Source of the DNA: Prochlorococcus sp. AG-388-A04
GTDB taxonomy: Bacteria > Cyanobacteriota > Cyanobacteriia > PCC-6307 > Cyanobiaceae
Assembly: GCA_003279935.1 (NCBI GenBank)
Contig: QCGL01000006.1
Coordinates: 1-64,000 of the forward strand
Length of the DNA: 64,000 nt
Reading direction: 5' to 3'
In this document: piece after piece, positions 40,007 to 47,449 of the stretch
Position numbering within the stretch: the stretch's first letter is position 1
Layout of the letters: each line of letters begins with the position of its first letter
Made by a program: the position numbers and the translations under genes
The notes under the pieces: model-generated
Database searches by the model: none
What the model was told of the DNA's origin: nothing
What the model saw: only the letters and a program-made list of their open reading frames with translations

Positions 40007-41017
40007 TTAGCTGATTTTCCATGGGTTAAGCAATTTTTGTGCTTTTTTTATTGCTAAATCCATTTTTTCTGGATATTCATATAATTTTTTATTATTTTTG
40101 CTGGCATCTTCTATAAGTGGTTGCATTATTTTTCTAGCAGAACTCCCAAAGGCAATTCCATCAGGAAAATTATTTATTTTCAAAAATTCATGAGTTTTCC
40201 CATTTGTTCCTCCTGCTAGTTGAATTAAACCTGGGGGAAGATGAGATCCTATATTATTCCATAATTTAACTGTATCCTTACCTGTTGCTGGAGCTAGATC
40301 CCCAGACATAGGCCTTCCATCTAGTTGCCAAATAAGCGGCACATTATGTTCGACAAGAATTTCATATCTTTCCCAGAGAGCTTTTAAAAGATCTTTTGGA
40401 CCTTTTTGGGATTGATTTAATCCACAACTTACAGATATTTTTTTTAATTCTATCCCTGAAGTTTTGAGAATATTTGCAACTTGTATAAAAGAATCTAGTC
40501 GATTGATTTCCGTATGAATTTCTACTGCATCAGGTTTTATTGTTTGTAGAGTTTGTGGTAAGTCATTATTTGACAATTTATATTCATATTCAGAAATTAA
40601 ATTTAGGGGACAACTATTTATACATCTTCCACATCCATAACATTTATTTTCTTTTACCCCAGAGTAGTCAATTGCAAAGGTAGGGCAAATCCTTTCGCAT
40701 GGCCTAGGACAATTAGAGGGGCATTTCAGTGGATCAAATTTAGCTTTGCGAAAATGTATATCCTTTCCATCACTAATGCTTATCATCAATCCTGGAGAGG
40801 CACCATAGAGTTTCTTGGCCCACTTAATACCATTTCTCGCTGCTTCAACTATAGATTCGTCAGCAGCAACATCAATATAGTCAACTCCAGCAGCAGAATA
40901 AATAGCACTTAAATCTTCTATGGCAACGATATCTTCATTGCTCGCCCCGCAAATTAATTTAACCCATTTATCAGATCCCTCTTTATTTTTTTTAAACAAC
41001 TCAATTTCAGAATTCAT
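40007..41017 (-). CDS. ldpA: Light-dependent period protein LdpA (iron-sulfur)
   Basis: 336 residues. [14 protein letters not shown] (about 99-112) and [19 protein letters not shown] (about 123-141) provide two sets of cysteines for Fe-S clusters. In Synechococcus elongatus LdpA feeds cellular redox state to the circadian clock. Its start overlaps the end of ndhN by 11 bases, so the two are translationally linked. The ndhN-ldpA pair next to the ribosomal cluster is a conserved cyanobacterial arrangement, as I recall it. The sequence alone does not show a clock role in Prochlorococcus, which has a reduced clock lacking kaiA. Confidence 0.88.
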
Positions 41018-41477
41018 TCAATATGTATTCATTTAAAGATTTCCATTCAAGTTTTCTAGACCCACCCATTTCAACAACAATTTTTAATTTATTATCTGAA
41101 GTACAGATTTTAATTAAGCTTTCTAGCTCAGATTGTGACAAGACTTGACCTTCCAATAGCCATAATAATTTATCCTTATCATCCTCATTAAATAGTTCAG
41201 ACGCTTGAGGGATTACTTGCTGAACTTCTCCAAGAGCACCATTTCTGCCAATGCTTTGATGACCGAGATGAGGTGGCCTTATACCATGTAATTTTAGTAA
41301 AAATACTTCAGGATCACCTAATCCTCTAGCAGAGGTAATGTAAGTTTTAAAACCTTTAGCCCGCATTCTTCTTAAAAGACGAGTTTCATACCCCCCCTCC
41401 AAAGGGGCAAACATAGCTAAGCATTTGTTTTTATTTAAATCATTATGAAACTTTTTTCCTGTCAGAAGTAATGGCAT
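41007..41477 (-). CDS. ndhN: NAD(P)H-quinone oxidoreductase subunit N
   Basis: 156 residues, a typical length for NdhN, the cyanobacterial/plastid-specific subunit of the NDH-1 hydrophilic arm. [20 protein letters not shown] (22-41), [18 protein letters not shown] (about 47-64) and [20 protein letters not shown] are family blocks. NDH-1 with ferredoxin drives cyclic electron flow and respiration. It overlaps ldpA by 11 bases and is divergent from rplC across 298 bases, which hold a structured element. Confidence 0.93.
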
Positions 41478-41775
41478 AAAGATTCTCTTTAACTATATAT
41501 TATTTCATTTTATGGTACTTGATGATGTACAATTTATATTCGGTGAATTTTTTTATGCTCGCAAGCTAGCCGAGCCTCTGGAATATTCACGTTTTTTAGC
41601 GTTTCGTTAAAGAAATATGGGATGGGTTGAATTGAACCCGATGAGAAACTTTCTAATTTTAGAAAAGTCTTACTCCCACAATTAAATTTAATTTTTGATT
41701 AATAAAGTTGTTGAAACTTTTAAGAGTTTTGACAATTAATCAAAAATTATTTACGAGCTAGCCTACTCAAGTCTT
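41478..41775. promoter_or_regulatory. Structured divergent leader between ndhN and rplC
   Basis: This 298-base gap has two structures. GCTCG/CGAGC (41557-41561 with 41571-41575) encloses a palindromic AAGCTAGC loop. A long hairpin lies at 41690-41748: 13 perfect base pairs, then a 5-base bulge (41703-41707), then 11 more pairs with 2 G-U wobbles, and a 6-base loop (41719-41724). It ends 27 bases before the rplC ATG. A second CGAGC-TAGCC copy at 41754-41762 could compete with the first hairpin. This looks like a regulatory leader of the ribosomal operon. Confidence 0.5.
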
Positions 41776-42429
41776 ATGTCTATAGGAATTTTAGGAAAAA
41801 AATTGGGCATGTCTCAATTATTCGATAAGGATGGGAATGCAGTACCGGTTACTCTTATAGAGGCTGGCCCATGTCGAGTCACCCAATTAAAAACTCAACC
41901 TTTGGATGGTTATACAGCTATTCAAATTGGTTATGGAATATCAAAGGATAAGCATTTGAGTAAGCCTGAGAAAGGACATCTATTAAAATCAGGTGAAATA
42001 CTTTTAAAACATTTAAAGGAATACAGAGTCGAGGAGAATTCCTCTTATGAGATTGGAAATGAAATAACTGTTACAAATTTTGAGGTTGGTCAGAAAGTTG
42101 ATATTAGTGGGAAATCAATGGGTAGAGGTTTCTCTGGATATCAAAAAAGACATGGTTTTAGTAGAGGTCCTATGAGTCATGGTTCCAAAAATCATAGAGC
42201 TCCCGGATCGACAGGTGCTGGAACAACTCCAGGGAGAATTTATCCTGGTAAAAGGATGGCAGGAAGATATGGAGGTAAAAAAATCACGACAAAGGGTTTA
42301 CTAGTGGTCAAAATTGATGATCAAAAAAATTTACTTGTTGTAAAAGGTTCTGTACCAGGCAAACCAGGCTCGATAGTAAATATAAAGCCTAATAATGTTG
42401 TAGGTAACAAGGGAGGAGCAAAATCATGA
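41776..42429 (+). CDS. rplC: 50S ribosomal protein L3
   Basis: 217 residues. It is the first gene of the S10-type operon here, because rpsJ lies elsewhere in cyanobacteria. [20 protein letters not shown] (3-22) and the central [20 protein letters not shown] stretch (about 126-145), with its loop entering the peptidyl-transferase centre, are intact. The gene overlaps rplD by 4 bases (ATGA). It is preceded by the long leader hairpin described above. Confidence 0.97.
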
Positions 42430-43058
42430 CAACCTTAGAAACTTTAAAATGGGATGGTAAAAAAGCTGGTAAGGTCTCAATTGATTTAAAAGTTGCCAAA
42501 GAGACTTCTTCTGCCGATTTAATCCATAGAGCTGTTCTTAGACAATTAGCTAACAAAAGACAGGGAACTGCATCTACTTTGACAAGATCTGAAGTTCGTG
42601 GAGGAGGCAGGAAGCCATATAAGCAAAAGGGTACGGGTAGAGCTCGTCAAGGATCAATTAGGACACCATTAAGGCCAGGAGGAGGGGTAATTTTTGGTCC
42701 TAAACCACGTTCGTATAACTTAGATATGAACCGAAAAGAAAGAAGATTAGCACTTAGAACAGCCTTAATGTCTAGGATTGATGATTTCAAAACTGTTGAA
42801 GATTTTGGGTCAACATTAAACCAACCAAAAACTAGTGAGATAATTAATGGTCTTTCTAGATTAGGAATAGAAAAAACAGAAAAGGTTTTAGTGATTCTTG
42901 ACGATCCCTCTGATGTCATTAAAAAATCTATTAACAACATTGAAAAGGTAAAATTAATTGCTGCTGATCAATTAAATGTTTTTGATATTCTCAATGCTAA
43001 TAAGTTAGTTATTGGTCAATCAGCAATCAATAAAATTCAGGAGGTTTATGGATCATGA
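42426..43058 (+). CDS. rplD: 50S ribosomal protein L4
   Basis: 210 residues. [20 protein letters not shown] (about 60-79) is the extended exit-tunnel loop of L4. In other bacteria L4 represses its own S10 operon by binding the leader RNA, so it is the natural candidate to bind the hairpin before rplC (inference). It overlaps rplC and rplW by 4 bases each. Confidence 0.97.
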
Positions 43059-47374: not shown

Positions 47375-47414
47375 ATTCTTCATCAAAAACGAGATTCCAA
47401 TTTTCTTATTACAC

Positions 47415-47436
47415 AATTCTGACAAAGACCAGAATT
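47415..47436 (+). promoter_or_regulatory. Hairpin in the rplX-rplE gap
   Basis: AATTCTG (47415-47421) pairs with CAGAATT (47430-47436) around an 8-base loop, 13 bases before the rplE ATG. This is the widest gap inside the spc part of the operon. It has no following T-run, so it is not a standard terminator. It may be a processing or translational-control site. Confidence 0.4.
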
Positions 47437-47449
47437 AATTACAAAAATC

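Follow-up and report, generated by a model that had tools for sequence, protein, structure and literature searches.

The 5' leader of rplC in Prochlorococcus sp. AG-388-A04 very probably carries an operator for ribosomal protein S8, through which free S8 would act at the first gene of a fused S10-spc cluster to lower the expression of the whole. In E. coli, the control of ribosomal genes by S8 is well established. In the window, which is the whole 64,000-nt stretch of DNA that was analysed (contig QCGL01000006.1, positions 1 to 64,000 of the forward strand), a short S8-like element, hereafter the core, lies about 100 nt upstream of rplC. The core is conserved, its stems covary, its letters agree with the positions contacted by S8, and it stands before S8-encoding genes in three genomic arrangements. 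Binding of S8 to the core and the consequent translational repression are what we infer from these sequences. The features of the leader and the two genes concerned are as follows.

41526..41533, plus strand: -10-like element TGTACAAT, from conservation; predicted transcript start near 41540
41543..41590, plus strand: hairpin P1, from folding; found in 138/138 distinct leaders of the family
41557-41561/41571-41575, plus strand: inner stem of P1, GCTCG/CGAGC, with a 9-nt loop (41562-41570) ending in GCTAGC (41565-41570)
41592..41615, plus strand: hairpin P2, TTTTTTAGCG-TTT-CGTTAAAGAAA, from folding and conservation seen in alignments
41618..41678, plus strand: P3, a three-way junction, from folding; similar layout seen in relatives
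41618-41622/41674-41678, plus strand: outer helix of P3, which with a side hairpin (41624-41639) and the S8-like core makes up the junction, from folding
41641..41673, plus strand: S8-like core GAGAAACT..AAAGTCTT, from the model R1 described below (31.1 bits, E 2.8e-7), covariation and contacts
41646, 41647, 41648, 41649 and 41650, plus strand: core equivalents of A640, N641, A642, C643 and U644 of 16S rRNA
41665, 41666 and 41667, plus strand: core equivalents of A595, A596 and G597
41689..41749, plus strand: hairpin flagged by a first-pass annotation of the same DNA, between the core and the start-proximal element, from repeat search and folding
41757..41762, plus strand: start-proximal element GCTAGC, 19 nt upstream of the rplC ATG; its letters can pair with those of the P1 loop (41565-41570)
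41776..42429, plus strand: rplC (L3), first gene of the cluster, from ORF and Pfam L3
47997..48398, plus strand: rpsH (S8), proposed repressor and 14th gene of the cluster, Pfam Ribosomal_S8 E 2.9e-49

The cluster runs rplC-rplD-rplW-rplB-rpsS-rplV-rpsC-rplP-rpmC-rpsQ-rplN-rplX-rplE-rpsH-rplF-rplR-rpsE-rplO, most of the other gene names being assigned from the look of the sequences. Its spacers range from -4 to 75 nt with four 4-nt overlaps, and the opposite strand has a divergent ORF starting at 41477. The corresponding Synechocystis operon is described as one unit (PMC3925133).

Conservation and covariation of the core

The core was searched for with the pattern RGAWACT-N4..60-AAGTCY (RGAWACU...AAGUCY in the RNA). 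In its strict form, this pattern occurs before rplC in 92 of the 95 distinct upstream regions of main-clade Prochlorococcus (L001-L129 after removal of duplicates and of loci whose upstream DNA was too short), in 37 of 40 further leaders of the window's family (L130-L169; 37 from other genera and three from divergent Prochlorococcus) and in 37 of 40 genomes from 23 other families (L170-L209), which were hand-chosen from 128 with rplC. Shuffled sequences matched in 3/1200, 1/800 and 5/800 cases, respectively. After addition of three more divergent genomes (L215, from the same genome as L151, was left out), the set outside the main clade consists of 37 leaders from other genera and six from divergent Prochlorococcus, and the strict count becomes 40/43. 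A relaxed form, which allows C as the first A of AAGTC (the position of A595) and was introduced after misses had been seen, occurs in 95/95, 43/43 and 37/40 leaders of the main clade, the rest of the family and the other families, with 7/950, 3/430 and 5/400 among shuffles. For the window's family as a whole, the core is present in 138/138 distinct leaders by the relaxed and 132/138 by the strict pattern, and six family leaders carry C at the A595 equivalent. The closing R-Y pair, the combination of which is left free by the pattern, is A-U, G-C or G-U in all 175 cases and never A-C.

Among the three misses in the 40 genomes of other families, L208 has the core before rplV instead (L276), and L192 has it 642 nt upstream of rplC, past the fetched stretch. 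In the third (L183, genome G478), the rplC upstream lacks the core, and the best R1 match in the genome has an E of 0.15; a variant, GGAAACTGAGAGG...CTTGTGTCC, is seen in place of the core there.

For structural comparison, 35 of 52 segments were taken into an alignment of cores. The proportion of paired cells in these 35 is 91.6%, compared with 24-54% when the structure is slid along the alignment, and 97 cells show double-sided change versus 32.8 (sd 5.6) in shuffles, none of 500 being as high; counted by pairs in which at least one such change occurs, the result (8) is not above that in shuffles (7.5). Because the cores were picked with a pattern demanding the fixed letters, the invariance of these letters in the alignment reflects the way of choosing, and independent support lies in the occurrence counts and the stems only. 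A single-sequence fold pairs the core slightly differently, with an AAC bulge. From the 35 aligned cores a model, R1, was built, to which 41641-41673 is the only clear match in the window, the next one scoring 12.1 bits. At the gathering score, Rfam recognizes only four tRNAs in the window and nothing in 18 leader loci.

Below, the handles f1, f41 and f12 stand for families that we take to be Cyanobiaceae, Melainabacteria/Gastranaerophilales and Gloeobacter, respectively.

Resemblance to the S8 site of 16S rRNA

In helix 21 of 16S rRNA, the S8 site is formed by an internal loop that contains the triples A595-(A596-U644) and (G597-C643)-U641; A642 is invariant there and contacted at its base, and the first triple of the spc mRNA is A+80-(A+81-U+11) (PMC4176348). 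In the leader core, the letters fixed by the pattern correspond to A595 A596 G597 U598 C599 of one strand and G639 A640 A642 C643 U644 of the other. Among these, U598, C599, G639 and A640 lie beyond the positions given in that paper, and their numbers are those that we assume. The S8 core with unpaired N641-A642 is present in the window at 41646-41650 and 41665-41669.

The strand order GAAACU...AAGUC is common to the leader core and the E. coli spc mRNA, MG1655 rplE having CGAAACT at +5 to +11 and AAGTCC from +80. The 16S genes of the window's own genome and eight other cyanobacterial genomes read AAGTCT...GGAAACT, in rRNA order. In five further SSU loci of the phylum, the motif search gave no match or one elsewhere; when helix 21 was located by BLAST, four of them read AAGTC...GATACT. 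Two of these four, both from f41, have GGATACT, which is also the reading of most f41 leaders, and the f41 locus L257 has a deviant helix 21. At the equivalent of position 641, A is found in 93/95 main-clade leaders and 39/43 other leaders of the family, as in its own 16S; U is found there in 34/37 other cyanobacterial leaders, yet the eight other cyanobacterial 16S sequences examined have A. Applied with filters off to the E. coli spc region, R1 gave no match at the operator (best 8.2 bits, elsewhere). Since R1 misses this operator, the strands of which are 68 nt apart, the E. coli match rests on the published positions. As for the protein, an alignment of the window's S8 to that of E. coli (1s03) shows that both the STSKGVM segment and the Tyr of PGLR.Y are retained; the roles of the RNA-contacting residues are those given in PMC4176348. 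Together, the covariation, the S8 contact letters and the location of the core before rpsH or rplV...rpsH elsewhere indicate that the ligand is most likely S8, not L3 or L4.

Position of the core in other genomes

R1 matches were found at E<=1 in 86 of 116 genomes of the class. Of the 63 matches at E<=1e-3, 58 sit 90-642 nt upstream of rplC, two lie before an rplV operon, and one precedes, by 204 nt, an rplC that is truncated where the contig ends. The remaining two have none of the 19 tested cluster genes nearby. These two (L242:201-227 and L243:219-244, from G428:C316 and G441:C332) are good core matches, which might represent chance or another target.

Among 146 genomes sampled across the phylum, matches at E<=1e-3 were obtained in 14 from family f41, which belongs to another class and has genomes of 1.7-2.3 Mb; further f41 genomes match more weakly or not at all. 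In all of the 13 f41 sites that were fetched out of these 14, the rpsH start follows the core by 9-55 nt, and rplF follows rpsH in 12 of them; in L246, no cluster gene other than rpsH was found in the stretch. Downstream of rpsH and rplF, four f41 loci (L230, L232, L233 and L237) show ORFs of about 100 aa that open like MKVSFSGIYDIRYPYG. Three Gloeobacter-like genomes have the core 83-86 nt before rplV, namely G415, G433 and, at E 0.012, G445; the longer stretches of G415 and G445 read rplV-rpsC-rplP-rpmC-rpsQ-rplN-rplX-rplE-rpsH-rplF-rplR-rpsE-rplO. In the loci L275 and L276, the core stands upstream of rplV...rpsH. Pfam agrees with the S8 and L22 names for the gene fragments tested. Of the ribosomal proteins encoded near the core in all of the arrangements that were followed far enough, S8 is the one known as a binder of such a site.

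Leader architecture and a possible relay to translation

Of the 138 distinct leaders of the window's family, 129 have a -10-like TGTANNNT ahead of P1 and nine have TANNNT; in 125 of the 129, TGTANNNT is 21-24 nt from the P1 stem. This conserved spacing before the first hairpin predicts a transcript start near 41540 in the window. A consensus scan for promoters does not list the element at 41526-41533. The inferred length of the leader is 207-384 nt in the 129 with TGTANNNT; in Synechocystis, the operon start has been placed 337 nt upstream of rpl3 (PMC3925133). The third pair of the P1 stem is UA in 100 leaders, CG in 35 and CA (unpaired) in three, a compensatory change.

A repeat search revealed that an element before the start codon, AGCTAGCC, repeats the P1 loop. 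The last six bases of this loop are fully complementary, with G-U allowed, to the start-proximal element in 138/138 distinct leaders of the family, where the partner begins 17-22 nt before the rplC start; the same complementarity occurs in 18/1380 shuffled leaders. The first pair of this putative pseudoknot is GC in 122 leaders, GU in 10 and AU in six, the third is UA in 102 and UG in 36, and the fourth is AU in 137 and GU in one. Outside the main clade, 35 of the 43 leaders could form a seventh pair, as could one of the 95 within it. In six genomes having A in the loop (L149, L150, L151, L212, L213 and L214), U is opposite in both the start-proximal and the mid-leader elements in 6/6. GCUAGC as a simple direct repeat can thus be rejected, since it would predict ACUAGC in the partners of these ACUAGC-loop genomes, which instead have GCUAGU or GCUGGU. 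The leaders are related, so that leader counts are not counts of independent events; the variation in the pseudoknot is small, and the change in the loop probably represents one or a few events.

A third, mid-leader element complementary to the loop (G-U allowed) occurs in 43/43 leaders outside the main Prochlorococcus clade and 0/95 within it, a search that is weak alone, as 110/430 shuffled leaders are also positive. The exact form GCTAG[CT], which is the better evidence, is present in 42 of these 43 leaders, the other one having GCTGGT. It is conceivable, at somewhat less than even chances, that the P1 loop pairs with either the mid-leader or the start-proximal element, S8 deciding between the two states. 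On this reading, all that is left of the two-state switch in the streamlined lineage would be its repressing half, and the S8 operator itself would be ancient and common to the phylum as a whole, the presumably non-photosynthetic class included.

The following mechanism is proposed. The core (41641-41673) would reproduce on the mRNA the site that S8 binds in 16S helix 21, with the strands arranged as in spc. When rRNA is short, free S8 made from the 14th gene would bind the core. With 90-642 nt between the core and the start of rplC, repression requires a relay, and the proposed pseudoknot between the P1 loop and the start-proximal element may transmit S8 binding to translation: in the window's family, S8 on the core would favour pairing of the loop GCUAGC with this element, which, at 19 nt from the start codon, would be beneath the initiating ribosome, and the ribosome site would be covered. 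The hairpin flagged by the first-pass annotation might serve as a variable spacer, returning the start-proximal element to the vicinity of P1. The short or overlapping gene junctions, including the four 4-nt overlaps, would pass the block along by translational coupling, and S8 in excess can probably turn the whole cluster down in this way. In f41, the core would be near enough to rpsH for direct occlusion.

Alternatively, a copy of the S8 site might have been retained in the core for the storage or titration of S8, or for stabilizing the 5' end of the mRNA, with rplC translation unregulated. The long distance from the core to the start codon is in line with this, and among the core-bearing leaders outside the window's family no relay was identified. 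On the other hand, the core of all 13 fetched f41 sites is placed where binding could block initiation at rpsH, and the start-proximal partner is kept in every one of the 138 leaders of the window's family. This alternative is considered improbable relative to an S8 operator.

Relation to known regulatory systems

The leader site shares with the spc operator of E. coli its core letters, the strand order (GAAACU at the 5' side and AAGUC at the 3' side) and the encoding of S8 in the operon that would be regulated. The spc operator sits at the translation start of rplE, whereas the cyanobacterial site is in the 5' UTR of rplC, 90-642 nt from the start; it would command a fused S10-spc cluster, and the window's family adds the proposed pseudoknot relay. 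No R1 site overlaps the rplE start in the window, although R1 would miss strands that are far apart, as it does in E. coli. With its location differing from the rplE start, the leader site is regarded as a variant of S8 operators and not as an E. coli-type spc operator. At 75 nt, the rplX/rplE spacer (47375-47449) is longer than any other in the cluster; it corresponds to the location of the S8 operator in E. coli, yet contains no R1 site. The likeness to 16S helix 21 consists in A595, A596, G597, A642, C643 and U644; compared with the rRNA, the leader core has the reversed strand order (a circular permutation) and a variable loop cap.

The first-pass annotation had suggested a leader for autogenous control by L3 or L4, while stating that the usual S10 leader could not apply. 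Such control by L4 (or L3), in which L4 encoded by the second gene would bind and cause attenuation and translational repression as in the E. coli S10 operon, is consistent with the structured 5' UTR that precedes the S10 genes in the cluster, and Axmann et al. (2005) set the region beside the E. coli S10 r-operon, by prediction (PMC1242208 Table 1). However, the first gene differs from that of the E. coli S10 operon, a simple consensus scan of 40400-43000 found no terminator-like site, and the core occurs before rpsH in f41 or rplV in Gloeobacter-like genomes with neither rplC nor rplD in the fetched stretches. The core letters are S8 contact positions. For mimicry of an L4 or L3 site, an rDNA motif search, run without a control, gave as its best 23S match in leader order one with one substitution that is not a helix, and this candidate was dropped. 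Hence the dismissal of an E. coli-type S10 leader is borne out, and autogenous control by the leader remains probable, but with S8 in place of L3 or L4, which are very improbable ligands.

The same genomic place has been noted before. Axmann et al. (2005) described an 'rplCD operon leader' (cluster 5) with predicted structural conservation in SS120, MIT 9313 and WH 8102, with no sequence counted for MED4; the S8 core, its phylum-wide range and the pseudoknot are not part of the description in the relevant sections (PMC1242208). S8 has been suggested as a possible autogenous regulator of the rpl3...rpl15 operon of Synechocystis 6803, the proposed target being the rpl5-rps8 spacer and not the rpl3 leader (PMC3925133). 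A 2009 paper (PMC2662882) lists other ribosomal leaders, with rplC unnamed in its text. The 20 new leaders in section 5 of Eckert and Weinberg (2020; PMC7247131) include none from cyanobacteria and none for S8, and section 2.6 of a 2024 review states that phylogenetic studies of S8 control 'have not been advanced' (PMC10931766). An S8 operator before rplC was not found in the open papers searched, while an earlier description in subscription papers or supplements is possible. A phylum-wide S8 site commanding a fused 18-gene S10-spc cluster would explain how photosynthetic cells of very high abundance keep much of their ribosome in balance through one site. The same operator would then be used at different operon heads, namely rplC, rplV and rpsH, and the leader is directly testable in genetically tractable cyanobacteria.

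The hairpin adjacent to rplC

The first-pass annotation had described a hairpin immediately before rplC, with 13 pairs, a 5-nt bulge, 11 further pairs and a 6-nt loop, ending 27 nt before the gene. It does lie there, with perfect 15-nt arms at 41689-41703/41735-41749 according to a repeat search of the window, although its end is 26 nt, not 27 nt, from the ATG at 41776. In the MFE fold of 41680-41790, the 13 pairs and the 5-nt bulge are retained, and the inner part becomes 13 pairs with a 4-nt loop. None of 200 dinucleotide shuffles folds as well (-25 kcal/mol, z -4.2). The whole region 41520-41780 is unusually structured too (z -4.3). When the 95 distinct main-clade upstreams were folded singly, a hairpin appeared at the same place with a median z of -2.0 (z < -2 in 47/95 and < -3 in 13/95), and the window's own copy (L081) was the most extreme with z -7.2. 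Thus, a hairpin at this place is ordinary for the clade, and the length of the present one is peculiar to the window.

Covariation, which had been proposed as a check of the hairpin, proved strong in the adjacent core and weak in the flagged stems. In an alignment of 38 hand-chosen relatives, RNAalifold gives no consensus pairs for the hairpin. The window's structure laid on these relatives has 72.7% paired cells versus 70.6 in shuffles, with 0/500 as high, and 42-62% when slid; the outer helix is paired at 89% and the inner one at 61%. Double-sided change is little above that in shuffles, both for pairs (7 vs 6.0; 156/500 as high) and for cells (22 vs 16.3; 21/500 as high), and the covariation score is reached by 7/500 shuffles. 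In aligned upstream regions of relatives, conserved parts of the leader flank the hairpin on both sides, and by eye the hairpin itself is the least conserved stretch. From these comparisons, the flagged hairpin is a minor neighbour of the S8-like site and not the conserved element. A function of the hairpin itself, as an attenuator or a binding site, is the least credible of the alternatives: its high stability in the window, its recurrence in relatives and the paired cells exceeding all 500 shuffles are in its favour, but the consensus fold has no pairs, double-sided change is weak, the sequence is poorly conserved within the leader, and no terminator was called at this hairpin.

Some features near the start codon were also seen. 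No Shine-Dalgarno-like GGAGG is present in 41763-41775 ahead of the rplC start; by eye, CCTCC stands just before the ATG in several relatives of the family, and GGGAG-like letters are found in many genomes of other families. In three leaders (L133, L137 and L131), a hairpin with a U-rich run just before the start-proximal element looks terminator-like by eye, and attenuation would be possible there.
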